Positions 7,968-44,659 of a DNA stretch of 64,000 bases are shown here, piece after piece. Source of the DNA: Amanita rubescens (Eukaryota > Basidiomycota > Agaricomycetes > Agaricales > Amanitaceae); the NCBI GenBank assembly GCA_015039365.1, contig WION01000153.1, positions 1 to 64,000 of the forward strand, in the 5' to 3' direction. Positions within the stretch are counted from its first letter, which is position 1, and every line of letters starts with the position of its first letter. Position numbers and translations under genes: made by a program. The notes beneath the pieces are model-generated. The model saw only the letters and a program-made list of their open reading frames with translations. It made no database searches and was not told the DNA's origin.

Positions 7968-10900
7968 TCACCCTGCCATAGATTGTTTATAAGTGATGCA
8001 TGACTAGACAAAGTACTTACCATCAATGTGATTCACCTGCCTATAAAGTAATGTGATCAAATCTTGATGACCAGATTGCATAAAGTCAGGAGTAATGTGA
8101 GTCTTCAGCTTCTGAACATAGCCTTTTTGCTTGTATTGATCCAAGGCATCTGCAACTGATGGCAGAAATGATTTTTTGGTCCAAAAGGATAGCTTGGCAA
8201 TGATAACAATTGCTTGAAGGTTTAAGCATAAATATAGTAAATGAAAGGGAACAATTTACAAACTAAGATCTGACAATCAGTAGGCTTGTTGCAATGGCAT
8301 CAGTTGTATATAGTACCCAGAAAAAATGAACAAAAGTACCATGATGGTAAAGTGCCTTTGCTTGTCTCCAAACATGGAGAAAATTTCATGCTGATTATGA
8401 GATAGAATTATATGCCCAGTGTGTCATCAGACCTACACACTAGTATGCAAACTGATATAAAAATCAATACCTCTTGAATCAGATCTGTGACACACCTGGA
8501 AATTAAGGAAGATATAAGTGACAGGAATGACCACATAACATGGGAGTGGGTCAGCTGAAATGAAATCTCACAATCTATAATGATAATAATGGAAAAGTGA
8601 GACATGGAAAAAATATGGCAACATGCTCACTTTCTAATATACATAATGATGTAATGATATTTCAAACATTCATGAATTATGGTGAGAATACAGGTCAGAA
8701 GATTTGTGATGTCACTCACAAGCTATTAATCATAGGAAAAGATGTTAGACTGCTGTTCAAAACATGTACAATGTCACTCACTTCCTGTTGGTTACAGGGA
8801 AAGATGTGATGAGACATCCTTTCACAACATCTGCTATCACTCACTTCCTGTTGGTCATAGGACAAGACGTGGTGAGATTGCCTTGGACAAAATGTGCAAT
8901 GTCACTCACTCGCTATTGGTCATAGGAAAAGATGACATGAGTGCATTTCACAAAATGTTCAATGTCACTCACAAACTGTTGGTCATAGGAAAAGATGTCA
9001 TGAGACTAGAATTCACAAAATGTGGAATGTCACTCACTTCCTGTTGGTCATGCATAGGAAAAGGTGTGATGAGACTGCCTGCCACAAAAGGTGTAATGTC
9101 ACTCACTCGCTATTGGTCATAGGAAAAGATGTCATGAGACTGCCTTTCACAAAATGTGGAATGTTACACACTTCCTGTGGGTCATAGGAAGAAATCTGAT
9201 GAGACTGCCTTTCACAAAATGTGCAATGTCATTGTCACTAACAACCTGTTGGTCATAGAAAAAGATGTGATGAGACTGCTTTTCACAAAATATGCAATGT
9301 CACTCACAGCCTGTTGGTCATAGGAAAAGATGTAATGAGATGCCTATCACAGAATGTGCAATGTTGCTCACTCCCTGGTAGTCATAGGAAAAGATGTGAT
9401 GAGACTACACTTTACAAAATGCATAAAATGTCACTTACTCGCTGTCAGTCATAGAAACAGATGTGATGAGTGCCTTTCACAAAATGTGCAATGACACTCA
9501 CAAACTGTTGGCCATAGGAAAAGGTGTGATGAGACTGGATTTCACAAAATATGCAATGTAACTCACTCCCTGGTGGTGATAGGAAGAAATGTGATGACTG
9601 GCTTTCACAAAAGTGCAAGGTGACTCACTCCCTGGTGGTGATAGGAAAGGATGTGATGAGAGTGCCTTTCACAAACTGTGCAATGTGACTCACTGCTTGC
9701 TGTTGGTTGTAGGAATAGATGTGATGAGACTGACTTTCACAAAATGTGCAATGTCACCCACAACCTGTTGATCATAGGAAAAGATGTGGTGAGACTGCCT
9801 TTCACAAAATGTGCAATGTCACTCACTCGCTGTTGGTCATAGGAATTGATGTGATGAGACTGCCTTTCACAAAATGTGGAATGCTACTCACTCCCTGTTG
9901 GTCATTGGAAAAGATATGATGAGACTGACTTTCACAAATGTGCAATGTTACTCACTCGCTGTTGGTCATAGGAAAAGATGTGATGAGACTGACTTTCACA
10001 AAATATGCAATGTGAAGGCTCACTCGCTGTTGGTCATAGGAAATGATATGATGAGACTGCTTTTCACAAAATTACTCACTCGCTGTTGGTCATGGAAAAA
10101 GGTGTGGAGACTGCCTTTCCCAAATTGTGCAATGCCACTCACTTGCTGTTGATCATAGGAAAAGATGTGATGAGACTGCCTTTCACAAAATATGCAATGC
10201 TACTCACTCCCTGTTGGTCATAGGAGAAAATGTGATGAAACTGCCTTTCACAAAATGTGCAATGTCACTCACTTGCTATTGGGTGTAGGAAAAGGTGTGA
10301 TGAGCCTGCCTTTCATGAAATGTGCAATGTCACTCACAAACTGTTGGTCATTGTCATTGGAAAAGATGTCATGAGACCACCTTTCACAAAATGTGCAATG
10401 TCACTCACAAGCTGTTGGTCATAGGAAAAGATGTCATGAGATTGCCTTTCACAAAATGTGCAATGTTACTCACAAACTGGTCATAGGAAAAGATGTCATG
10501 AGACTCCCTTTTATGAAATGTGCAATGTCACTCACATCCTGTCCATAATAGGGGAAGATGTGATGAGACTGATCACAAAACATGCAATGGCACCCACTCC
10601 CTGGTGGTCATAGGAAAGGATGTGATGAAACTGTCTTTCACAAAATGTGCAATGTCACTCACAAGCTATTGGTTATGAGACAAGATGTGACAAGACTGCC
10701 TTTCACAAAATGTGAAATGTCACTCACAAGCTGTTGTTCATAGGGAAAGAGGTGATGAGAATGCCTTTCACAAATGTGCAATGTTACTCACTCCCTGTTG
10801 TTCATAGGAAAAGATGTAATGGGATGCACTTCAAAAAGTGAGAAATGTCACTCACTCGCTGTTGATCATAGGGAAAGATGTGATGAGAAAGCCTTTCACA

Positions 10901-13900
10901 AAATGTGGAATGTCACTCACAAACTGTTGGTCATATGAAAAGATATGATGCAACTGCCTTTCACAAAATGTGGAATGTCACTCACAAGCTGTTGATCATA
11001 TATGTGATACTGAGACTGCCATTGACAAAATGTACAATGTTGCTCACTCCCTGTTGGTCACAGGAAAAGATGTGATGAGATGCTTTCCACAAAATGTGAA
11101 ATGTCACTCACAAGCTGTTGGTCATATGTAGGATAAAATGTGATGAGACTGCACTTCACAAAATATACTCACTCCCTGTTGGTCATAGAAAAGATGTAAT
11201 GAGACTGCACTTCACAAAATAAGCAATGGCACTCACTCCCTGTTGGTCATAGGAAAGGCTGTAATGAGACTGCCTTTCACAAAATGTGCAATGTCACTCA
11301 CATCCTGTCCATAATAGGGAAAGATGCGATGAGCCTGCCATTCACCAAATGTGGAATGTCACTCACTTGCTATTGCTCATAGGAAAAGGTGTGATGACCT
11401 TCACAAAATGTGCAATGTCACTCACTCGCTGTTAGTCATTGGAAATTATGTGAGGAGACTGCTTTTCACAAAGTGTGCAATGTCACTCACTTGAAGCTGT
11501 TGGTCATAGGAAAACATGTGATGAGACTGACTTTCACAAAATGTGGAATGTCACTCACATCCTGTTGGGAAAGATGTGATGAGACTGGCTTTAATAAAAT
11601 GTACAATGCTACTCACTTGCTATTGGTCATAGGAAAAGAAGTGATGAGATTGGCAATTGCCATTCACAAAATGTGCAATGTCACTCACAACCTGATGGTC
11701 ATAGGAAAAGATGTGATGAGACTGCCTTTCACAAGATGTGCAATATATCACTGACTTCCTGTTGGCCATAGGAAAAGAGGTGATGAGACATTCACAAACA
11801 TGTAATGTTACTCACTTCCTGTTGTTCATAGGGAAACATGTGATGAGGCTACCTTTCACAAGACATGCAATGTCACTCACTCCCTGTTGATGATGGGAAA
11901 GATGTTATGAGACTGCCTTAAAAACCTTGAATGTTGCTCACATCCTGCCAGTAGTATGGAAAAATACATAGAACAGCTTTTCAAAAATTATTTGCCATGC
12001 TACTCACATACTGTTAGCCAAATTTTGATGGGGTCATCTCTTAAACCACTAAACCAGCATGGCATGCTGCTAACCTTCTATGTTTATAGGAAAAGATATG
12101 ACTTCACTGCTTTTCACAAAACTTACAATATCACTCACAATCTGTAGAACACAACAATGTGTTAAAATTGTGTTGTTGCAGATTTTGCACTCACTTCCTT
12201 TTAGAATGCAATTAGCATAATCAATTAAGAAAGGAAAATAATGCCACTGACTCTCTTTTGCCATAGTATTTCATATGACAAATTTTGAAATCTAAACAAA
12301 GTAGCACATACATCCTGTTTGTTTTGGAATAGTGAAGAGGCATTGAAAGGAGAAATATTCACTGTCTGTTGTTTTGGGACAAGATGTAATGTTTTTCAAC
12401 AGACAGAAATGAAATGTCACTTACTTCCTATTATTAATCCAATGAAGTTTGTTGAGATTCTCTTTCAGATAACAATACATATGTCACCAACTTTCTATTG
12501 TTCATTAAAGTATGTCTGACAAACTGCACAAACACTGATGTTGCTTACTTTCTTTAAGCAGGTCAGATGTGGTGTGATGCAGTGTTGTACTACTCACTCC
12601 CTGTCCATGAGAGACTAGGTTGACAGGTCTGCTTCCAATGGTAGATTAACTCACTTTCTATTGGTTATACATGATGCAATATGGGATCATTTTCCAAAAA
12701 TCAAAATTGAGTGTCAATGAGTGACTCACATCCTGTAGATTATGGGACAACACTGTTGACATAAAAGAAAGCATTACTCACAAACTGTTGCCATGAGGCA
12801 ATATAGATCCATGCTAGTTCTATGTCACTTACCCACTGATATCAATAACATCAGAGTATGCCATCAAGAATATGGTGACAACTAACCTGTGTTTCACTTA
12901 GTTGTTTATTCTGGAGCATGGCTAATTTTGTTTTCATGTCAAGGCATTGGAATGTTACTTACCTCCTAATGAACTTTTTGCTAAGTATTAATCATCCCAT
13001 ATGAAGGCCACCTACCACCCTGTCCACCTACTGCCATTTAACTTTTCCTATACTAATATGCAGTTTGATGAAGGTACATACCCAGAAATGTGGAAATTTG
13101 GAAAAAACTATTATAATGACCTCATCCCATGTCAAATCTTTATATTTCAGAACATGCCTGACCAATGTCAATGTTAGTTAGTGACATTTTGAATGTGACA
13201 CTCACTGAAGTGCAGATTTGACACAAAGGTCAAGATTGTTTTTCTGTGTTGAAATAAACAAGTGACGTATGCTGTCATCATCTATTGCATCAGCAGTTTG
13301 CTGAGTTAATTCAGCACAATTCTTCTCTGGTAAATCCATGTCTAGGAAACAACATTACTCCCAATTTTCAGGAAGAAACCCTCATAATTCTCACCTTCCA
13401 ATCGCACATATGTCTTAGGAGGATATTTGGCATTGAAAACTTTAGGAAGGTAAACTTCCTGAAAAATTATGTCAGCGATTTCCCTGGCTCTCTCCCACCT
13501 ATCTTCATCCTTTGAATCAGTCAAGTTGACAAATGCAGTGGCTATTTGACCATCAAATTTAGTGAATATAGCCACCAAAGGAACTGTAAAGGGCATATTT
13601 ACTAGTCAGTAAACTGTAATTTGGTACTTAGTAGATTTTGTGGAAATTTAGCAAAAGGAAAGAGAGGTAATAACAGTTAAGGATAAACAATCTCCCCAAA
13701 TAACAAGATGAGATATGAATTAATTAGGACTTACCTCTGCCTGTCCCTTTATTGAAGAACTCAAGTTCTGCAGGTAGAATGGGACGAGGGCTGTCCATGG
13801 GTATACAGTACCTACAGGAAACCAGGTCAGACAGTACCATAAAGGAATAAAACAGCTTCAAAAGATACCAAATTGCATGCAGCTGATTCTTTAACTCAGT

Positions 13901-14434
13901 TTCTGCAGACTTGTTTTCAATGAACTTCCAAGCATTCTCCAATTCCTCAGCTGAACCAGATTCAAAACCCTGAGAGTCATGGAAGATAAAGTTACTTCCA
14001 GGGTATGTAATTTGATGCTCAATATTATGCAGGCCTCTCTATTATCATTGCACTGTGTGAATGGGTACAATCATACATCAGTACCTGACTCACCTCTATT
14101 GATGGCATCAAGTGAATCACAGATTGTTCAAGCTGATTACCTGCAAGAAACTCAACAGTCTAAGGAAACACAAAACTCAGACTGACTTACCATCCTTGTT
14201 ATATATGATGGGATTTGTCCCCTTTCCTACACCACAAACCTTCTCAAGGATGGTTGTCTTGCCTGCATTAGCCCTCCCAATGAGAAGGATGTGAAAATAT
14301 GGGCATAGGTAGTGATCCCTGAGCATTTTAACATGCATCTCATCTTGATCTAATTATATGCATTAGTAGTGGTTGAGGATTAGTATTACTGACCGTAATG
14401 CCAAGGCATACTTACTCAAAGAAGGTGCAGCCAT
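7968..14434 (-). CDS. P-loop GTPase-like protein with an internal array of ~68 codon-sized micro-exons
   Basis: The start ATG is at 14434 and the stop at 7970-7968. Exons read by eye: 14416-14434, 14191-14349, 14094-14140, 13869-14038, 13735-13811, 13395-13583, 13206-13341, 13082-13157, then tentative 13016-13019, 12963-12965 and 12887-12896, then 68 micro-exons from 12835 to 8572, then 8471-8495, 8340-8390, 8264-8269 (tentative), 8021-8192 and 7968-7972. The sum is 1359 nt, about 452 residues, with no stop. The N-terminal half is a G domain: GRANAGKTT (Walker A, about residue 33), HDSQGFE (G3), FTKFDG (G4-like), as in Agaricomycete GTPases of unknown role. The C-terminal part is helical (CVTDLIQE, then HEIFSMFGDKQRHF). 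The micro-exons supply about 70 charged residues in between. The gene is much richer in A+T than its neighbours. The G domain is certain; the use of every micro-exon is inferred. Confidence 0.72.
9694..9699 (-). other. 6-nt micro-exon (probable fused pair)
   Basis: Between an AG acceptor and a GTGAG donor lie six bases instead of three, reading CAAGCA on the gene strand. CAA is itself a common 3-nt micro-exon in the array. The simplest reading is clean loss of one intron between two micro-exons. The frame is kept. Confidence 0.6.
11491..11496 (-). other. 6-nt micro-exon (probable fused pair)
   Basis: The gene strand has CTTCAA between AG and GTGAG. Both CTT and CAA occur repeatedly as single micro-exons, so this is best explained by exact loss of one intron, or by a duplication of exon sequence that kept the frame. 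Confidence 0.6.
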
Positions 14435-31838: not shown

Positions 31839-33155
31839 CTAGGTTGACAGAATCCCGTCATCTGCAACAGGCCTCCCCAAAGAAATCGACCGAACATAGG
31901 ATGCGGCCTTTCTGACCCGGTTCATGATCGCGAGACCCTCCCATTCTTCATTCACCTCTTCAATCAGGATATGATCGACCCTTTCCTCGTCCAACGTGAT
32001 CAAACCATCAAATAGGCGATGCGCAATGGTGGACGGCGCAGCCTTTAGCCCAAGAGGATATCGATGCCATTCGAATGCATCATCTTGTCGAAGGCAGCCC
32101 CATAAGTCGGAATCCTCGGGCGCTAAGACGCCAACTCGGATAGGTCTTCCTGACGATGTGGGCAAACTCTCTTGTAACGACTTCAGATACGCTTTGACTG
32201 GCAATGGGGGAAAACTCGATGGTTTCGTTTGCGTGAGAAGTAGCGTTACGGGTGCGGTGGGTGAATAATGTCTATATTTCATGCCAGGAGTCGTTGGCGC
32301 TTGTTCCATCACCGTATCCACGTAATCGCGGCGGTGAACTAGCACTTTCGGGATGGTATCATCCGTCTTGTCCATTTCACTTTGCAAAACGCGCGTAATG
32401 CCTTCAAAAGTTACGCCTCCGGGGCGCAGAATACGAATATCGCCGTCTTCTTGCAAGCCATCCACGACGGTGCTCTCCAATCCCACTCCGCACTGACCCC
32501 CGTCAAGGATGATACCAACTTTTCCATCTAGATCCTTCAGCACGTGCTCTGCCCGCGTCGGACTCGGCTTTCCCGAAGTGTTAGCACTAGGTGCGGCCAA
32601 AGGGACGCCTGCGAGAGCGATGAGAGCCCGGGCTACGGGGTGTGACGGTATTCGGATGGCGACCGTTGGCTGACTCGCGGTCACTATTTCTGGTATGACT
32701 CCCTGTCTTTTCGGAAACAGTAGAGTCAGCGGTCCGGGCCAAAAATGCTTCATAAGAATTTCGTATGTGGGTGGTATTCGGTATCCATCAGGAAGGAGCG
32801 TTCGGAGCATAGAAAGTGAAGAGACGTGCACGATCAGGGGGTTATCCGCAGGACGGCCTTTCGTTTTGAATATTTGGGATACTGAATCTGCATTCAGTGC
32901 ATTAGCGCCTAGTCCGTAGACGGTTTCTGTAGGAAACGCGATGGTCTCGTGCAGGTTTGACAGACGGTGGGCAGCTACCCTTAATGCATCTAGAGTTTCG
33001 GGTGACGAGACGTCTGGTTGATCAGATTTCGAAGAGAACGTGATAGAGGTAGGATCGCATCTAAGAATGCTTGTAGACGAGTGATTCATAAAGCCAGATA
33101 ATTTTGCGGCATTTCCCCGATAGAGACTGAGATAGCGCGCAGAAAAAATGCGCAT
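31839..33155 (-). CDS. SUA5: Threonylcarbamoyl-AMP synthase (SUA5/YrdC family)
   Basis: A single 438-codon frame. Residues about 55-265 are the YrdC/Sua5 domain: FPTETVYGLGANAL, FKTKGRPADNPLIVH, FWPGPLTLLF, VAIRIPSHPVARALI, LAAPSANTSGKPSPT and LRPGGV. The C-terminal Sua5 domain follows a proline-rich linker (KYRHYSPTAPV to the end). The enzyme makes threonylcarbamoyl-AMP from threonine, bicarbonate and ATP for the t6A37 modification of ANN-decoding tRNAs. The N-terminus (MRIFSARYLSLYRGNAAKLS) is basic and could target mitochondria; a second Met at about residue 23 (MNHSSTS) would give a cytosolic form, as described for other eukaryotes. This is inference. No introns are needed. Confidence 0.9.
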   Translation of the reverse strand: MRIFSARYLSLYRGNAAKLSGFMNHSSTSILRCDPTSITFSSKSDQPDVSSPETLDALRVAAHRLSNLHETIAFPTETVYGLGANALNADSVSQIFKTKGRPADNPLIVHVSSLSMLRTLLPDGYRIPPTYEILMKHFWPGPLTLLFPKRQGVIPEIVTASQPTVAIRIPSHPVARALIALAGVPLAAPSANTSGKPSPTRAEHVLKDLDGKVGIILDGGQCGVGLESTVVDGLQEDGDIRILRPGGVTFEGITRVLQSEMDKTDDTIPKVLVHRRDYVDTVMEQAPTTPGMKYRHYSPTAPVTLLLTQTKPSSFPPLPVKAYLKSLQESLPTSSGRPIRVGVLAPEDSDLWGCLRQDDAFEWHRYPLGLKAAPSTIAHRLFDGLITLDEERVDHILIEEVNEEWEGLAIMNRVRKAASYVRSISLGRPVADDGILST

Positions 33156-36339: not shown

Positions 36340-36743
36340 TGACGAAAGGGAAACGCCCAGTAGCGCAGCGTCGAGGAGTTAAAGCGATAGCTTACCCGAT
36401 GTGTAAAGTAGCAGACCACTCAGCTAAGAAGATGGTGGTAGGAGGTTAAGAGAGCTTGTTCCTATTCTACGGTACATGGCAGGTTTATATACTGTCTGTG
36501 TCCTAATAGGTAACAACATAGGTAAATATATGTAACTACATATGTCATACTCATATATGGAAATATGGAGCTGCGCTGATGTCATGCGCAGCTATGGTGT
36601 CATATGGCGCCATCCGCAGTAAGGATGACGCAAGCGTACTAGAACCTTCTACAAGGTTCTATCTATATATATCCTAATCTGCTTAGTAAGCAGATAAGAT
36701 AAGATCTCCTTGTTATCTTAGATTAGATAAGATAACTTCGTCA
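36340..36743 (-). repeat. Copia 3' LTR
   Basis: 404 bp with TGACGAA/TTCGTCA terminal inverted ends. It has AT-rich TATATATA-containing sequence near 36,662-36,670 and matches the other LTR base for base as far as I could compare by eye. Confidence 0.93.
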
Positions 36744-36753
36744 CACCCCCTCG
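36744..36753 (-). other. Polypurine tract
   Basis: On the element strand CGAGGGGGTG directly precedes the 3' LTR, the expected position of the plus-strand primer. Confidence 0.7.
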
Positions 36754-36758
36754 CTAAG

Positions 36759-39700
36759 TTATCCTAGAATATTTATCTGCCATTTCTTCTTAATGAATTC
36801 TACTAGGAATTTGTTTTCATCCATTAATGTTTCTAAAAGATTCCACGAGTCCAACATATTGATGTCTTCTCGTTTGAAGGATCTTTTGATCTTCGACTGC
36901 CTTATAGGTTCGTATATCTTCATAATACGATCTCTAACTGGTTTTGGTAGAAGATCTTCTTTTCTATTCATGAACGTATCCTTTGGTACTTTCGGATCAA
37001 GCATATCACGAATGAAATTTTGTCGCTTGTTCGTATACATGAATGTTGCTTCAACTCCATTTAAACCTTCGGCTGAAAGGTGTATCCAGTGACTTGCACT
37101 ATGCATTTTGATAGTGGGATATGGAGTAACATTAACGGTGATTCCTAATTCATTTATAAAGAACTGAATTTTCTCTCTATTCAGGTTCTTAGTCATTAAG
37201 TCCGCTATTTGTTGATTGGTGGGAACATAATAAAGATTGATCTCTTTTTGTTCAACGCGTTCCCTAATGTAATGATAGCGAATGGAAATGTGTTTTGATT
37301 TATGCTGTTGTGCAGGGTTTGATGCCAGAAATATCGCACCCTGATTGTCGCAAAGTAGGTCAATGCCGCCCAAGGGGAAACCTAATTCTTGATATAGGTT
37401 TAGCACCCACATAATTTGACGTGAGGCGTCGGACATTGCCATATATTCAGCTTCCGTTGATGACAACGCAACTGTTTTCTGTTTTCGAGAAACCCAACAA
37501 ACTGCACCCCCTGCCAAAGTTAAGGCATAGCCTGTAACCGAGACTCTAGTCTCTCTGTCAGACGCCCAATCTGCATCTGCATAAGCAACGAAGCCTTTCC
37601 CATTTCTGGAATAGGTAATTCGTGTGTCAAGGGTGTGCGCTATATATTTTACTATATAAAGCGCCCTTTGGATGTGGTCGTAAGATGGATTAACAGAAAA
37701 TTGCGACATTAAAATAACAGCATAAGCAATATCAGGCCTAGTTCCTAAGGCGAGATACAATAACGATCCAATTATTTGTTGATAATAGGATCTATCTTCG
37801 GAGGATGCTTCAGAGGTGTTTTTAGCAGGTACATATCCTGCAGGTAAAGGAGTTGACACCGGCTTGCAATTTAACAAGCCAAAGCGTTCAACGACTGTCT
37901 TTGCATAGGCAGCTTGATCTATTACAAGCGTACCAATCGCTCGGTCGTAATTGATTCTGATGCCCAAGTATTCTTTGACTTTTCCTAGGTCTCGACATTC
38001 CCACATTTTCATAAACTCCTTTTTGATATATGAAATTGTTTCGGTTCTGTCTCCCATGAAAAGTATATCATCCACATATATTACACATATGGTAATATCT
38101 TTATCTGTGGTTCTGACATATATGCCAGAGTCGGCTAAGCATCGTTTAAATCCTAGGGACTTCAAGGATTTGTCTGCTTGTTTATTCCAAGCGTACGATG
38201 CTTGTTTTAAGCCATAAATAGCTTTCTTAAGTTTATATACTTTAGATTCTTGTCCTTTAATGATGAAACCTTCTGGTTGTTGCATATATATTTCCTCGTC
38301 TAAGTCGCCATAGAGGAAAGCAGTTTTAACGTCAAGTGCTTCAATATCCCAATTTTCTAAAGCACTTGTTGCCAGAAGAAGTCTAATAGTTTCATATCTC
38401 GCTACCGGCGAGAATGTTTCATCATAATCCAATCCCGGGCGTTGGCTAAAGCCTTTGGCGACAAGTCGTGCCTTTTTACGGCCATCCGACTTAATATCAT
38501 AAACCCAACGACACTTTATTGGGTTACGCCCTTTTGGTAATTCCATTAATTCCCATATATCTCTATTTTGTAGAGATTTGAACTCGTCTTCCATTGCAGT
38601 TCGCCACTGCTTATATAGATCAATATTTTCACCTTTGATCTTATATATATCCCTATATTGATACGTTCGAATTTCTTCTCTTGGTATCATATTCGCGAGT
38701 AGGAAATGCATAAAGTCATTTCCACACTCTTTGATCATCCTAACCATTGTTGCCTTTGGATCTATATCCATAGATCTTGAAGGCGGTGTTTTAGCAGTTG
38801 GATCAAAGCGTGTAGCCGCATCCTTGTTTGGGATACGGCCACCAAAGTCATTCTCGTAATTGTCAATCTGATATTTGATCAGATCTCTTTGTCTGAGAAT
38901 TTCTTTTTCTATTTCAACTGCTTTCTTTTCACCATACGCATTATCTTTACGTATAATTGGCTTGGGAACACGATTAGATCTTCGGGGAACTACTGCCAGT
39001 GGGGGTACCACTGGAGTGGGTTCATTTAGCCTCTGTCTACTATGAGGTCTATGAGATCTATCTAAAGATTTGGATCTTTCTCTACGTTTTCCCATGGCTT
39101 TGGATGATGGTTTAATCGTTTCAGGGATATAATCTGCTGGATTTATAGGCTTTTGAACGGTTGATCGTTTGCCAAATTCCTGTCTAACTTTATTAAAAGT
39201 TAGATCTGGCATCGGAATTTGTTCATCAATCTCCTTTTTAAATTCAGGGATTGATTTATGATCTTTATTAATTCGTTCAAGATTCCTATCTGGTGCGAAT
39301 CTTTCTGCAAGTCTTTTTCTAATATCCAGGACTTGTTCTCTAGTATTCGTACGTGGTGGACTTCTGTCAGGGATGAATTTTTTTAGGATCTCATCCGCAT
39401 TGCGTCTACGAATTTCTATATTCGTGTGCCTGTCACGAAGTCCACTATTCTGTTCCAGCAGGCGAGTTCTTTCTCCTGCTTCAAGGTCCTCTAGTTCATC
39501 ATCAATGTTCCTCATGGTTTCTTGGAATCTCCTTCTAAGATCATCCATGGTGGAACCTTTTCTGATATCAGGACTATCCGGTTTATCAGCCTCATCTGGT
39601 GTTGGACTACGAGATTTTAATCCCCAAGACGGAGTTTTAAGGCCATCTGATAGGGGTGATAAGGATTCTCGTTTTACTGATGCCGGTTTATCGCCCGAGT

Positions 39701-42700
39701 GACCGGAGCTGGAGCTTGAGTCGCTTTCAGGATCTCCTCCCTCTACAGAGTCAGCTGGTAGAGGAGATTGTGTGCGCCTGCGACCAAGTTGTCTTCCCCT
39801 AACAGGGGAAGGGGATGGAATACCATTATTAGTGTCTCGATTATCGAGAAGGATTGGTGCAAGATCTTTAGTAATAATAATATCACTTTTTCCTTTACGA
39901 GGAAATCTGTCTTCAAAGAATGTGGCTTGGGCGGATATGACTAGTGCGTTATTGGAATCCATAAATTTATATGCTTTTGATCCTAGTTCATACCCGACAA
40001 AGGTCATAAGTTCTGATTTTGGAGATAGTTTATCAGAACGTTTTTCAACTGGGATAAAGACCCAAGCTTCACATCCAAATACTTTAAAGTATTGAATGTC
40101 AGGAAGGGAACTATATAAAAGTTCCCAAGGCGTTTTCCAGTTGCCACGCACAATTGGGGTTCTATTATATACATGTACAGCTGTTTCGATTGAAAATTCC
40201 CACCATGATCTCGGTATACATGCATCGAGCCGCATAGCTTCAGACTTATCATTTAAAGTCTGAATCATCCGTTCAGCTCGTCCATTTTGCTGATGTATAT
40301 GAGGTGCCGATGTTTGGTGTTGAATGCCATTTTTGTCAAGGAAATCTTTAAAGGCTTTATTTACGAATTCCCCCCCTCGATCGGAACGGAGGTAGAGTAT
40401 TCGTTTATTAAGTGCAGAAACTTTCGTGAACCATCGCTGGAACACTTCAGTTGTATCTGACTTGTGTTTAAGGAATCCGATCCATACATACGATGAATAA
40501 TCATCGACCACAACAAGTATATACTTGTATTTGTGGTAAGACTGAGTTGGAAACTCTTTTAAGTCCATGTGGATCATTTCAAGCGGACGTGATGCCCGCT
40601 TTTTGGATTCTTTGTAAGTTTTTGCCTTCATTTTTCCTTTTAAGCATCCTTCACATCGAAGATTTGGGGATGGTTTGGGAAGATCGCCTTTTTCAAACCC
40701 TTTTACGTGTCCTTTAAGATGTTGGAACACGTCTTTACCAGGGTGACCTAGACGTTTATGCCATATATCGTACGTTGATACACTTTCATTTACTGTATAA
40801 GTTTCAACAGGTGGAGCCTTATCAACGTGTGTATATGTATTGACAGATTCTCTTTCAAAGAATGGTGGCACTTTGTGGACGTTTTTATGAATGATACGTC
40901 CTGTGCATAAGGTTAATGTATCTTGATTGCGATAACTTGCTTCAAGATATATTTCCTTTTTACCATCTTTATAGGAAAAGGTGATCCGTTGATCGTCTTG
41001 TGACGCCAGTAACCCTTGCTTACACAACATGCCATTCGAAACAAGTCTTATGTTAAGACGCGGCATGTATAACACGGGGTACAGTTTCACAAGGTGGCTA
41101 GTTCCATTAGATAATTTATGAATAAATATAACAGTGCCTTGTCCAATTAGATCGGATGTGCCATCTGCTGTTTTTACCAGTTTTACTTTATCAAAAGGTT
41201 TATAATCTGAAAAATCATTCAGATTAAAGGTAAAATGCTCAGATGCACCGGAGTCACACATCCATAGTGTTTCTCCAGTTCGTTCTGTACAACAGGAAGG
41301 ACATTTGCAATTGTCCGTTCTACCAGCACATATTATGTGCTGATGTTGATTTCCCGTTGTATGCATTGGATAGGCGACATGAACCTTATTTTTATAGTTT
41401 GGACTTATAGGGCTAACTCTCATTGGGACGTTTTTAGTTTTACATGAATTTTTATTACATTCCATGTTATATACAATTACAGAATTTGAAATTGTTTTAC
41501 ATACGTCCACTGAATAAGAGTTAGCCCAATCCATACTAAAATAAGATTTAACCCACTCGTCATTATAGTAATCATCATATGTAGAATCATCATAATTCTT
41601 CATATCATAATCGTCGAAAGCCGTGAAGTTATCATTCGGCTGATCATCATATGCCCCTTCTATAAGGGGTTCTTCTTGCATGGGAGTAACTTCTTCTATT
41701 CTCCCAGTGGATGATCCTTGTACAAATGGTACAATGGAATGGTGGCCAAGTATGGCCGGTGCAGCAGTATACTGAGTTTGGTTTTGCCCAGTATAGGTCA
41801 TGCCAGAGGTTACTTGATGAGCGTCAGCTCGTGCTGCCGCTCGGTTGACCTTCGCAGTTTGGCGAAGTTGCCTATTACGTTGCCAGTTACGGCCACGTGT
41901 TTGATTGGTCATTTGACCCTGCCACTGCTGCTGATGCTCTGGTAACCTAGGAGCGTTACCAGTTCCCATTACTGGTTGCTGATTTTGAGGTGTGTATGGT
42001 TGAAAACCACTACGACCTCGTCCACGGCCACGGAATCCTCCGCGGCCTCGTCCACGTCCTCGCCCACGACCTTGCCAGGGTGCCTGACCACCAATTCTTT
42101 GTTGCAGGTCACCTCGTGCCATTTGTGCGGTCGTATGTGCGACACTTGAGTGTCGCCTTCTCCATTCTTCCCTAATCTGAATCGCAACGTGCTGGACTGT
42201 TAGGCCAGCCGCCGGTGCAGTTGCCAAAACGGCTCCTACAAAATTGTCCCAACGATGCGGAACACCGCGGACAATTATCATCGCTTTTTGTTCTTCGGGT
42301 AGCGAGAAACCCTGTCCACTTAATCGCTCAAATTTGGCGATTATTTCATTAAGGGACTGTTCAGGGTCCCTTCTTTCATCAAGCTTCCAATCCAGGGCAG
42401 CCTGGAATTCGTTGAAGGTACCGGTTCGGCCGGTATCTCCATATCTCTGTCGCAAGGCAACCCAAAGGACCCTTGCATTGAGATGAGCACCTGTGTCATA
42501 TATCTCCGCGATAGAATCGCTCAAACGGAGCATAATTGAACCCAGGGCTTTTTCGTTATCAGAGAGCCACTCTAAATATGAGTCTCTCTGATCTAGTAAA
42601 GCTTGGATATTTGCTGGTATTGGGGCAAGCATAATAGCTTCACCAGCTTCTGCAGGCAATACCGCATCGAAGTCATGAGCCTCGAGCGTTGCCTGCTCGG

Positions 42701-42854
42701 TTGCGTTTAGATCTAGCGGTTGGATAAAGGAATCTCTCATGTATTTGTAGATTCCTTTTACTTGTAAATAGGCCGTCATTTTGCGAGCCCACAAGCGGTA
42801 ATTGTCTCCCTTAAGTAAGGGGACAGTGGAGAGTGATGCTGAATCTTCGGACAT
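36759..42854 (-). CDS. gag-pol: Copia Gag-Pol polyprotein
   Basis: One frame of 2031 codons. Gag, about residues 1-400, ends in an Arg-Gly-rich stretch; I see no CCHC zinc knuckle. Protease: WMCDSGASEHF at about 531. Integrase: zinc-binding region HKRLGHPG...CEGC near 700 and the catalytic core with SDRGGEF near 825 and GRAERMIQTLN. A linker of roughly 400 charged residues follows. Reverse transcriptase begins WVYDIKSDGRKKARLVAKG and has YVDD near 1593. RNase H: YADADWASD near 1760, STEAEYMA near 1800, and ADLMTK near 1887. An extra tail of about 140 residues follows RNase H. Gag and Pol are in one frame, as in plant and fungal Copia elements, so stoichiometry must be set otherwise. Confidence 0.93.
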   Translation of the reverse strand: MSEDSASLSTVPLLKGDNYRLWARKMTAYLQVKGIYKYMRDSFIQPLDLNATEQATLEAHDFDAVLPAEAGEAIMLAPIPANIQALLDQRDSYLEWLSDNEKALGSIMLRLSDSIAEIYDTGAHLNARVLWVALRQRYGDTGRTGTFNEFQAALDWKLDERRDPEQSLNEIIAKFERLSGQGFSLPEEQKAMIIVRGVPHRWDNFVGAVLATAPAAGLTVQHVAIQIREEWRRRHSSVAHTTAQMARGDLQQRIGGQAPWQGRGRGRGRGRGGFRGRGRGRSGFQPYTPQNQQPVMGTGNAPRLPEHQQQWQGQMTNQTRGRNWQRNRQLRQTAKVNRAAARADAHQVTSGMTYTGQNQTQYTAAPAILGHHSIVPFVQGSSTGRIEEVTPMQEEPLIEGAYDDQPNDNFTAFDDYDMKNYDDSTYDDYYNDEWVKSYFSMDWANSYSVDVCKTISNSVIVYNMECNKNSCKTKNVPMRVSPISPNYKNKVHVAYPMHTTGNQHQHIICAGRTDNCKCPSCCTERTGETLWMCDSGASEHFTFNLNDFSDYKPFDKVKLVKTADGTSDLIGQGTVIFIHKLSNGTSHLVKLYPVLYMPRLNIRLVSNGMLCKQGLLASQDDQRITFSYKDGKKEIYLEASYRNQDTLTLCTGRIIHKNVHKVPPFFERESVNTYTHVDKAPPVETYTVNESVSTYDIWHKRLGHPGKDVFQHLKGHVKGFEKGDLPKPSPNLRCEGCLKGKMKAKTYKESKKRASRPLEMIHMDLKEFPTQSYHKYKYILVVVDDYSSYVWIGFLKHKSDTTEVFQRWFTKVSALNKRILYLRSDRGGEFVNKAFKDFLDKNGIQHQTSAPHIHQQNGRAERMIQTLNDKSEAMRLDACIPRSWWEFSIETAVHVYNRTPIVRGNWKTPWELLYSSLPDIQYFKVFGCEAWVFIPVEKRSDKLSPKSELMTFVGYELGSKAYKFMDSNNALVISAQATFFEDRFPRKGKSDIIITKDLAPILLDNRDTNNGIPSPSPVRGRQLGRRRTQSPLPADSVEGGDPESDSSSSSGHSGDKPASVKRESLSPLSDGLKTPSWGLKSRSPTPDEADKPDSPDIRKGSTMDDLRRRFQETMRNIDDELEDLEAGERTRLLEQNSGLRDRHTNIEIRRRNADEILKKFIPDRSPPRTNTREQVLDIRKRLAERFAPDRNLERINKDHKSIPEFKKEIDEQIPMPDLTFNKVRQEFGKRSTVQKPINPADYIPETIKPSSKAMGKRRERSKSLDRSHRPHSRQRLNEPTPVVPPLAVVPRRSNRVPKPIIRKDNAYGEKKAVEIEKEILRQRDLIKYQIDNYENDFGGRIPNKDAATRFDPTAKTPPSRSMDIDPKATMVRMIKECGNDFMHFLLANMIPREEIRTYQYRDIYKIKGENIDLYKQWRTAMEDEFKSLQNRDIWELMELPKGRNPIKCRWVYDIKSDGRKKARLVAKGFSQRPGLDYDETFSPVARYETIRLLLATSALENWDIEALDVKTAFLYGDLDEEIYMQQPEGFIIKGQESKVYKLKKAIYGLKQASYAWNKQADKSLKSLGFKRCLADSGIYVRTTDKDITICVIYVDDILFMGDRTETISYIKKEFMKMWECRDLGKVKEYLGIRINYDRAIGTLVIDQAAYAKTVVERFGLLNCKPVSTPLPAGYVPAKNTSEASSEDRSYYQQIIGSLLYLALGTRPDIAYAVILMSQFSVNPSYDHIQRALYIVKYIAHTLDTRITYSRNGKGFVAYADADWASDRETRVSVTGYALTLAGGAVCWVSRKQKTVALSSTEAEYMAMSDASRQIMWVLNLYQELGFPLGGIDLLCDNQGAIFLASNPAQQHKSKHISIRYHYIRERVEQKEINLYYVPTNQQIADLMTKNLNREKIQFFINELGITVNVTPYPTIKMHSASHWIHLSAEGLNGVEATFMYTNKRQNFIRDMLDPKVPKDTFMNRKEDLLPKPVRDRIMKIYEPIRQSKIKRSFKREDINMLDSWNLLETLMDENKFLVEFIKKKWQINILG

Positions 42855-42860
42855 CTTTCT

Positions 42861-43496
42861 TTAGATAACGAAGATTGAGAGTGATGCGAGGAAGGCGGCA
42901 AGAAAGATTTGTAAAAAGGTTCTTTGGAACCTTTGACGGATGATGATTTGATTTGGTTCAGCTAATGAGCTGAACGAACTTGAACTGTGTTGCGAGAACG
43001 GTTCTATCTCGCTATAATCGGGTCCTCGATCTTCGATTAAAGATCTTCGGAACCGGATTTCGTCGGTTAATGTAAAACCGGATCGAAATGTGTCAGTTTC
43101 AAGTCTGTACTGACGATTTATCAGCGAGGTATGGACACCTGCTGAATGACGAGCTGTTCCTGGTAAATATACAGGAAGTGGAGTATCTGCTCGCGGGACG
43201 TAATAATCGTTTGGATCACGATCTAATTCGTCCTCGGATGATGAGGCAGATGGGTATGTTGGTACTATCCGGTTAACGGGCCGGGTAGTAATGCGAGCTG
43301 AACTGCTTGCAAAATTTGCAGTCAGCGATTCAAGTTCACTGTCGGAAGATGAACTTTGAAATAGGTCGTTTAGCCTATTTAGGTCTTCTGCTAATCTATT
43401 ATATCTTCTAGCTCGACGGCTCATAGGCTGGAGCGAAGATTTATCTAAAATTGGAACAATTAATGAGGTGTCATTACGAAAACGACAACAACCCAT
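42861..43496 (-). CDS. Extra ORF in the Copia leader, with C-terminal membrane segment
   Basis: A 211-codon frame in the element's orientation lies between the 5' LTR and gag-pol. Its stop is 6 bp before the gag-pol ATG. The product is Ser/Arg-rich (SSSSDSELESL, ASSSEDELDRD), with a hydrophobic C-terminus (LQIFLAAFLASLSIFVI) preceded by RQRFQR, that is, a tail-anchor-like arrangement. An internal Met (MSRRARRYNRL) is a possible start. Standard Copia elements have no gene here; envelope-like genes, when present, lie after pol. Whether it is translated is not known, and a spliced subgenomic RNA or reinitiation would be needed for gag-pol. Confidence 0.5.
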   Translation of the reverse strand: MGCCRFRNDTSLIVPILDKSSLQPMSRRARRYNRLAEDLNRLNDLFQSSSSDSELESLTANFASSSARITTRPVNRIVPTYPSASSSEDELDRDPNDYYVPRADTPLPVYLPGTARHSAGVHTSLINRQYRLETDTFRSGFTLTDEIRFRRSLIEDRGPDYSEIEPFSQHSSSSFSSLAEPNQIIIRQRFQRTFLQIFLAAFLASLSIFVI

Positions 43497-43885
43497 TCGT
43501 GCAGCTTATGAGCTGCTCCAAGCATGGATATGCCTGGACGCCACCACCTTGGACATGTACCCGTGTGTGTGAATGTGCTACCTATAAGAGATGACATGCA
43601 TATGGTCCTGGAACTGGGAGCGCGCAAAATGGCATTTCTCCCCTGGATCCCCTTGAACGGGGGAGAACAGTTTGTTCCAGGAATAGAAATAGCTTCTGGT
43701 CCATAAACCCCCCAGACAGCTATGTAAGCACGACCGGTAAACAATATGAAGCTATCTAGATAGGATTGTGGGATCACCACAGAGCCTAAACTTAGAATGT
43801 TCCTATAGAACATTCCGACTAGAGGAGTCCCTAAGGGCGCATCCTCAATAGACTGCGTGTACCACCCCAAATGGGATGTCAGCAC
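43460..43885 (-). other. Possible second leader ORF of the Copia element
   Basis: A 141-codon open frame overlapping the start of the preceding ORF in another frame. It has a few hydrophobic patches and a clear Met start but no family signature. It may be a chance frame in the untranslated leader. Confidence 0.25.
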
Positions 43886-44243
43886 GTCCTTTATACTAGA
43901 ATAGCTATTTACGAGCCATATTGTATTATAAAGCCTCCAATGGGCTTATGATGTTATATCGTGCATTAATACCCCAATCACGTCACGGAGGGCAAGTAAA
44001 ACTCCGTGGGGGTCAGGGTTGCCATGCCAGCCCTGAGAAACGTAGGTGGTACCCTTATCCCTGGGTGTCTAGGAGATCCCCCTTAGCCCTAGGGTCCGGG
44101 CGCATGTCATTAGCTCTTATAACAGGTGCAAGGGTCAGCTGTAATCAACGGTGCTACAAGTACACAGACCCGCACGATACTATACCTGTGTTCACACATC
44201 GCGTACGTCGTTGGCGATAGCGTCGACAAGCAATACCATGTCG

Positions 44244-44255
44244 GGGCCCATAACC
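44244..44255 (-). other. Primer-binding site, half-tRNA type (initiator Met)
   Basis: The plus strand reads GGGCCCATAACC abutting the LTR. This equals the anticodon-stem-loop segment of eukaryotic initiator tRNA-Met as I recall it (CAT anticodon inside), so the element strand is complementary to an internal part of that tRNA. Drosophila copia is known to prime from a cleaved initiator-tRNA half in the same way. There is no TGG start complementary to a tRNA 3' CCA end. Confidence 0.65.
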
Positions 44256-44659
44256 TGACGAAAGGGAAACGCCCAGTAGCGCAGCGTCGAGGAGTTAAAG
44301 CGATAGCTTACCCGATGTGTAAAGTAGCAGACCACTCAGCTAAGAAGATGGTGGTAGGAGGTTAAGAGAGCTTGTTCCTATTCTACGGTACATGGCAGGT
44401 TTATATACTGTCTGTGTCCTAATAGGTAACAACATAGGTAAATATATGTAACTACATATGTCATACTCATATATGGAAATATGGAGCTGCGCTGATGTCA
44501 TGCGCAGCTATGGTGTCATATGGCGCCATCCGCAGTAAGGATGACGCAAGCGTACTAGAACCTTCTACAAGGTTCTATCTATATATATCCTAATCTGCTT
44601 AGTAAGCAGATAAGATAAGATCTCCTTGTTATCTTAGATTAGATAAGATAACTTCGTCA
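44256..44659 (-). repeat. Copia 5' LTR
   Basis: Same 404 bp sequence as 36,340-36,743, next to the primer-binding site. It would hold the element's promoter; a run of TATATATA is present near 44,579-44,587. Confidence 0.93.

Follow-up and report, generated by a model that had tools for sequence, protein, structure and literature searches.

Our analyses have identified, in a 64,000-nucleotide (nt) stretch of the genome of the mushroom Amanita rubescens (assembly GCA_015039365.1, contig WION01000153.1, positions 1 to 64,000; hereafter the window), a minus-strand GTPase gene in which a segment of about 70 residues, hypervariable between the members of the gene family, is encoded almost one codon per exon. 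In the joined model, 67 of the 82 exons of this gene are 3 nt long. Judging from the sequences, this region is likely (with a probability of roughly 0.85) to be a real array of single-codon exons, which would evolve by turnover of its units while selection keeps the codons diverse. The initial annotation had put the gene at about 84 exons, close to our 82, and had confined the finely cut stretch to 8572..12835; those limits hold for the array itself, but the fine division starts before it, with three exons of 12, 3, and 24 nt that lie upstream. The features of the gene are as follows (aa, amino acids; bp, base pairs).

8004..14434, minus strand: whole GTPase gene, 82 exons and 81 introns, 468 aa; the phases agree and the only stop is at the end
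13082..14434, minus strand: exons 1-8, with the GTPase domain as far as ...KFPHFW; the last of them, exon 8 (13082-13157), finishes in phase 0
13016..13027, minus strand: exon 9, 12 nt (VDRV), from the model; the related protein P0001 has VDRA after FPHLW
12963..12965, minus strand: exon 10, 3 nt (GAG), from the model
12887..12910, minus strand: exon 11, 24 nt (NKQLSETQ), from the model; NEQLSETK in P0001
8572..12835, minus strand: array of 68 exons, 66 of one codon and 2 of two codons (11491-11496 and 9694-9699)
11942..12886, minus strand: head of the array, with mutually diverged introns; codons W F D K G K K E T D R E I K Y D
8709..11919, minus strand: 65-bp tandem units, many with a different codon; no two introns of the window array are identical
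8391..8571, minus strand: exit intron with an internal AG/GT at about 8496, longer than in aligned paralogs
8340..8390, minus strand: exon 80 (HEIFSMFGDKQRHFTIM; HEIFSMFG...), starting in phase 0
8260-8284 and 8004-8212, minus strand: exons 81-82, C-terminal part and stop; boundaries by eye against P0015

The boundaries of the exons that flank the array were placed by comparison with paralogs, and those of exons 9, 81, and 82, which were set by eye with P0001, P0002, and P0015, are less certain. A candidate 25-nt exon at 8,472-8,496 was dropped, as it disrupts the reading frame and none of the seven paralogs aligned has an equivalent. The predicted protein carries the motifs GRANAGKT, HDSQGF, and TKFD, most positions of which vary little or not at all across 30 aligned proteins, and which we take to be the G1, G3, and G4 motifs of a P-loop GTPase of the TRAFAC type. 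The Pfam domain MMR_HSR1 scores 20.8 bits in this protein, under the curated cut-off of 21.9, and it likewise falls under the cut-off in the related proteins P0015, P0018, P0044, P0001, and P0088. Two public models of A. rubescens treat the segment differently: P0002 stops at the array, ending ...FPHFWVDRVVDGQ, and P0067 passes from FPHYW to the apparent exit exon within a few residues, seemingly bypassing the array. Arrays of this kind may therefore be missed in other annotated genomes as well.

The gene belongs to a large family. A search of the A. rubescens genome (75.7 Mb, 786 contigs) gave at least 338 matches to the array DNA and at least 150 matches each to exon 8 and to the C-terminal exon, counts which probably include haplotype copies. 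Of the 150 exon-8 matches listed, 111 are paired with a C-terminal match on the same contig and strand within 12 kb, at distances of 1,517-7,799 bases (median 3,623); the other 39 have no such partner. We have examined 27 loci including the window, of which L009-L028 were picked by similarity to the array DNA, L029-L033 from among loci for which no array match was listed, and L034 for its close relationship to P0015. All of them adjoin at least one exon of the same GTPase family and 26 of the 27 contain arrays, with 25-86 chained codons per locus in the 25 array loci whose codons were counted. L009 is nearly identical to the window array, from which it differs by 4 substitutions and one gap over 4.4 kb, and the longest array (L017) has 87 introns and 86 exons, every one of them 3 nt long. 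A GC-AG intron (CAT|GCAAGT) close to base 1360 on the minus strand of L033 seemingly joins the two chains of that locus.

On the minus strand of the window, from 12,886 to 8,496, the best chain consists of 69 GT-AG introns of 46-86 nt (median 62) which, with only gaps of 3, 6, or 9 nt allowed, are separated by 3 nt in 66 places and by 6 nt in two. This agrees with the initial annotation, which had described about 68 tandem GT...AG introns with the same gap counts. When gaps of 1-12 nt were left free and unpenalised, the window yielded 67 gaps of 3 nt, two of 6, one of 10, and one of 12 (71 in all). The longest chain in 100 dinucleotide shuffles of the array region had 6 introns (mean 0.68) against the 69 observed, and no chain of 4 or more introns occurs on either strand of positions 15,501-64,000 of the window. 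Of the window introns, 51 of the 69 (1054 of 1384 across loci) start with GTRAGT, and 66 of the 69 end in CAG or TAG. In 25 array loci (26 were examined for this purpose, L031 being without a chain of 8), 1041 of 1099 GTRAG sites have their closest preceding YAG at a distance of exactly 3 nt, compared with 7 of 68 in control sequence. A genome-wide search with the junction motif gave 2254 matches with a 3-nt gap and 10 with a 4-nt gap, and reversed-motif controls gave 4 and 2. The last of the 69 chained introns ends at the internal AG of the exit intron of our model (8391-8571). An AG/GT site with zero bases between, following the last ATT microexon, is seen at about 8,496 in the window, and it recurs in the diverged loci L029, L030, L031, L032, and L033; it is possible that it represents a zero-length exon or a relay site.

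Much of the window array is also a tandem repeat (Tandem Repeats Finder: 65 bp, 49.8 copies, 76% matches, 8709-11919), and the antisense strands of homogenised arrays carry lower-scoring chains with a fixed 8-nt gap (23 of 24 gaps in L018, 27 of 28 in L010, and 23 of 32 in L017), for which reason periodicity within the repeat is little proof by itself. The free-gap count of L018 mixes sense chains with these antisense 8-nt chains and is hence distorted. A chance-chain artefact is ruled out by the shuffles together with the antisense strands. Independent evidence for the array architecture is provided by L032, L033, and L034, for which Tandem Repeats Finder reported no tandem-repeat rows. Their introns, of 46-82 nt, are chained with 3-nt exons: L032 has 45 introns and exons of 3 nt (41), 6 nt (2), and 9 nt (1), L033 has chains of 14 and 30 introns, and L034 has three chains of 24, 5, and 9. 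With free gaps, 120 of the 140 exons of these three loci are 3 nt long and 133 are a multiple of 3, and their antisense chains reach 5-8 introns at most. Between L032 and L034 the GT and AG dinucleotides differ at 0 of 161 sites, versus 162 of 1901 at other intron sites, and of the gap openings 54 fall in introns, 3 in splice dinucleotides, 2 at sites next to these, and 1 in an exon. Since these paralogous arrays chain without any tandem repeat, satellite decay is excluded as the origin of the pattern.

The triplets between the introns behave as codons. Stops in the 25 array loci (near-duplicate loci included, L034 excluded) number 18 of 1334 in frame 0, 5 of 1301 in frame 1, and 136 of 1301 in frame 2, and all 18 of those in frame 0 fall in L011, L021, and L026; the remaining 22 loci have 0 of 1167, 4 of 1141, and 126 of 1141, respectively. 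Frame 1 is nearly stop-free owing to the codons in use, and the test of stop avoidance to rely on is the lack of T at the first position of NAA, NAG, and NGA: T is the first base in 18 of 729 triplets where a stop would result versus 195 of 605 elsewhere (p=3e-54). L011, L021, and L026 also have spacers before GTGAGTGACATT that are not 3 nt long (4 of 47, 14 of 43, and 1 of 18), and with their stops and 2- or 4-nt spacers they are probably decaying genes. A 4-nt spacer at this place was seen once each in L014 (1 of 33) and L022 (1 of 12), and in L010, L017, L025, and L027 no spacer departs from 3 nt. The codons of the array head are largely conserved among paralogs, and in 8 of 8 locus pairs they differ less than the introns do (p<0.05 in 5 of the 8); splice dinucleotides of the array head show 0 differences at 60 sites in 7 of these pairs and 4 of 60 in the other.

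The start of the peptide encoded by the array is present in relatives that apparently lack the introns. By searching with the spliced prediction we found NCBI proteins and proteins on JGI contigs about 1.0-2.6 kb long, and of the 14 JGI proteins examined six (P0001, P0005, P0015, P0017, P0018, and P0044) show, after FPH..W, the W-F head of the array. The peptide predicted from the one-codon exons, WFDKGKKETDREIKYD, is contiguous in a relative as WFEKGKKESDREIEYD. The uninterrupted stretch of P0001, FPHLWVDRAVTNEQLSETKWFEKGKKESDREIEYDG, shares 27 of 35 residues with the spliced prediction (E 2e-16), and within the part that corresponds to one-codon exons 13 of 16 residues agree, a value reached by none of 200,000 permutations. 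P0015, P0018, and P0044 span the GTPase through the C-terminus, and from the first W of the array to the last I they have 69, 52, and 49 residues, respectively. P0015 and P0018 agree almost completely in residues 1-240 and at the C-terminal end, and their array segments differ, with gaps; as they differ outside the array too, they represent separate genes or alleles. The JGI contigs are apparently transcripts (cDNA), a reading suggested by their shortness and by frames that are unbroken across many intron positions. Region searches for further intron-free relatives returned only P0001, P0005, P0002, P0015, and P0018. P0100 and P0101, two related JGI proteins more distant from Amanita, have the GTPase part in common and diverge sharply right after FPH, so a variable segment may exist at this place in other lineages. 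On the evidence of the repeat-free paralogous arrays and of these cDNA-like relatives carrying the encoded peptide, the view of the initial annotation that the region holds introns with single-codon exons, rather than a decayed satellite, is supported.

In the homogenised arrays, identical introns stand beside different codons. The comparison took in 340 units with 62-nt introns in 12 loci, of which 336 are at most 10 changes away from the consensus and 4 were dropped; the 336 units depart from the consensus at 2.2% per intron site and at 57%, 64%, and 42% at the three exon positions. One exact 62-nt intron occurs in 159 units from 9 loci next to 20 different codons and no stop, and L017 alone has 41 units with identical introns and 8 codons. 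Exons have changed faster than introns in 4 of the 6 locus pairs compared, viz. the window and L009 (exons 1/210, introns 3/3640), L013 and L015 (4/159, 4/2894), L013 and L014 (9/159, 7/2890), and L010 and L018 (41/117, 20/2079), where the exon excess of the last pair may partly be due to the pairing of non-corresponding units. The window and L009 differ by a single codon (R/Q), and L017 and L019 differ by a whole unit. Identical introns beside 20 codons would constitute a clean natural experiment in concerted evolution under diversifying selection.

Several observations weigh against a real array that turns over under selection. The window's own array contains no two identical introns, no exchange of units was directly observed among the loci compared, and in two near-identical pairs the exons are unchanged (L017 and L019: exons 0/255, introns 1/4591; L017 and L020: 0/183, 7/3230). 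The array-head codons are significantly better conserved than the introns in only 5 of the 8 pairs, the codons of L032 and L034 differ at 7 of 134 sites against 162 of 1901 in introns (p=0.25), and L031 keeps only 5 chained introns. Among the JGI proteins, P0010 and P0058 end soon after FPH with no W-F head, P0054 has a W-T variant of it, and the more distant P0080, P0088, P0100, P0101, and P0114 are without the W-F head. P0001 and P0005 stop short of the C-terminal exon, and with at most 88 and 85% identity, respectively, to the A. rubescens genome among the matches listed, they come from relatives and not from A. rubescens itself. The transcript status of the JGI contigs is, moreover, read from their proteins.

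It is exceedingly improbable that the region is a tandem satellite whose unit happens to hold AG-NNN-GT, with nothing spliced: the 49.8-copy, 65-bp repeat at 8709-11919 and the fixed-gap chains on the antisense of homogenised arrays would suit a satellite, but L032, L033, and L034 have chains of the same kind without a tandem repeat, stops are avoided in frame 0, and the predicted peptide is present in intron-free relatives. The same peptide bears on the possibility of one long intron removed stepwise, in which AG-NNN-GT would mark relay points and the triplets would be lost or incidental. Entry and exit exons that are both in phase 0, so that skipping the array keeps the frame, the AG/GT site after the last microexon, and the apparent bypass of the segment in the public model P0067 are all in keeping with such an intron; relay sites, in contrast, need no stop-free triplets, no exact 3-nt spacing, and no conserved codons, and P0015, P0018, and P0044 hold 49-69 residues at this place, which makes a single long intron very unlikely. 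That all members of the family are decayed and without function is highly improbable, even though stops and broken spacers are found in L011, L021, and L026 and L031 is degraded, since 22 of the 25 array loci have no stop in their chained codons, the window gene has an open frame of 468 codons, and the relatives are apparently expressed.

Two other explanations accept the single-codon exons and differ in how they arose or vary; both appear unlikely to us, to about the same degree. An introner-like burst, in which copies of one intron were inserted between adjacent codons of an older uninterrupted exon, would directly yield identical introns beside different codons. Against such a burst, introns are unlikely to insert at every third base in a single phase, the arrays of diverged members have mutually dissimilar introns, so that the architecture probably predates the homogenised introns, and no uninterrupted copy of the array peptide was found in the genome, in a search made without a positive control. 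A mutator that alters the triplets and leaves the introns intact would account for units with at most one intron difference that differ on average at 1.3-2.0 of their 3 exon bases (L010, L012, L013, L016, L017, and L018, or 6 of 9 loci, with 1.14 from 28 pairs in L024, 0.5 from 2 pairs in L028, and no such pair in the window), and also for the fact that divergence within the introns does not rise toward the exon. Against it, we know of no enzyme that mutates exon triplets while sparing introns, the absence of stops would require strong selection anyway, and two near-identical locus pairs show no exon change.

An array of single-codon exons maintained by turnover and selection could operate in the following manner. 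The short introns would be removed by intron definition, one after another; a 3' site and the next 5' site lying 3 nt apart could hardly be bound together, which points to stepwise removal. The strong intronic 5' site (GTRAGT) would relieve the codon of base-pairing duties, and with A or T as the third base in about 91% of chained codons, recognition seems to rest on this intronic sequence. The 65-bp units may be duplicated, lost, and exchanged by unequal recombination, by which the introns would be homogenised family-wide, and diversifying selection would keep the codons different despite this homogenisation. As every exon is one codon in phase 0, the gain, loss, or skipping of a unit stays in frame. 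The family's expansion and variability suggest that the variable segment probably recognises changing partners. A further proposal, which we offer as tentative and give somewhat less than even odds, is that the array is a device for codon-by-codon diversification, with the identical introns as homology cassettes and the single codon as the unit of recombination; if so, unequal exchange, unit loss, and exon skipping would rewrite the recognition segment in any combination and always in frame, in DNA and possibly in RNA.

The truffle Tuber is an ascomycete, and arrays of codon-sized exons are known from it. The initial annotation had known of no tandem intron array with 3-nt exons; a precedent does exist, as the NACHT-ANK (nank) superfamily of Tuber melanosporum has dozens of 3-bp mini-exons, which, in passages of later papers, are credited with diversifying a recognition region and for which alternative splicing is reported (Iotti et al., 2012, via PMC9815663, PMC4986451, PMC3689799, and PMC10197012). 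As described in those passages, the two systems are alike in being expanded fungal families in which dozens of codon-sized exons encode one part of the protein; counted as in Tuber, 3-nt exons in tandem number 67 in the window gene and 86 in L017. They differ in that the Tuber protein is a NACHT-ankyrin receptor and the Amanita protein, from another phylum, a GTPase, and in that identical introns beside variable codons are a feature of Amanita which the Tuber passages do not mention. Pfam lists no NACHT domain in the GTPase part of the window protein (E up to 0.001) or in P0015, P0018, P0044, P0001, and P0088 (E up to 1), and no ankyrin repeats in P0015, P0018, and P0044 (C-terminal parts included), P0001, and P0088. 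Codon-sized exons in Amanita or in GTPases were absent from the literature matches listed (most subscription papers lie outside the search). In the papers found, Amanita is a second fungal lineage, with another type of protein, that has arrays of codon-sized exons, which suggests that such arrays arise repeatedly where a protein must vary fast. In all likelihood, a mushroom spliceosome can handle up to 86 consecutive one-codon exons, a severe test for models of splice-site pairing.

Other systems share single aspects of the array. Schistosome micro-exon genes have long runs of tiny exons with lengths that are multiples of 3, and differ in phylum and in protein, the exons there being longer. 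Introners and introner-like elements are many near-identical introns in one genome, whereas the Amanita introns stand in tandem inside one gene family, as seen in the 27 loci examined. In the HNWD genes of Podospora anserina, the repeats are reported to show concerted evolution with four positions per WD40 repeat under positive diversifying selection (PMC2873952). The likeness lies in near-identical units variable at few codons, found in Amanita in the sister loci and not in the window's own array. HNWD units are exchanged within and between members, and exchange may occur in Amanita too, where 9 loci have one intron sequence in common and the near-identical L017 and L019 differ by one whole unit. 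The HNWD repeat is translated, whereas in Amanita all but one codon of the repeat is intron. Recursive (zero-nucleotide) splice sites have a 3' site closely followed by a 5' site, which implies stepwise removal (PMC13149111); in Amanita, in contrast, the two sites are separated by 3 nt, which the product retains. Microexons in other fungi reportedly include a functional one in Trichoderma Xlr2 (PMC11121469) and several among the P450 genes of Phanerochaete (PMC1184071).

Two further features of the window were noted. Positions 36,340-44,555 hold a Copia-type long terminal repeat (LTR) retrotransposon with an open frame of 2031 aa and two terminal direct repeats of 300 bp, whose identity indicates that the insertion is probably recent. 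On the minus strand at 31,839-33,155 lies an uninterrupted 438-aa gene for a Sua5-type threonylcarbamoyl-AMP synthase.

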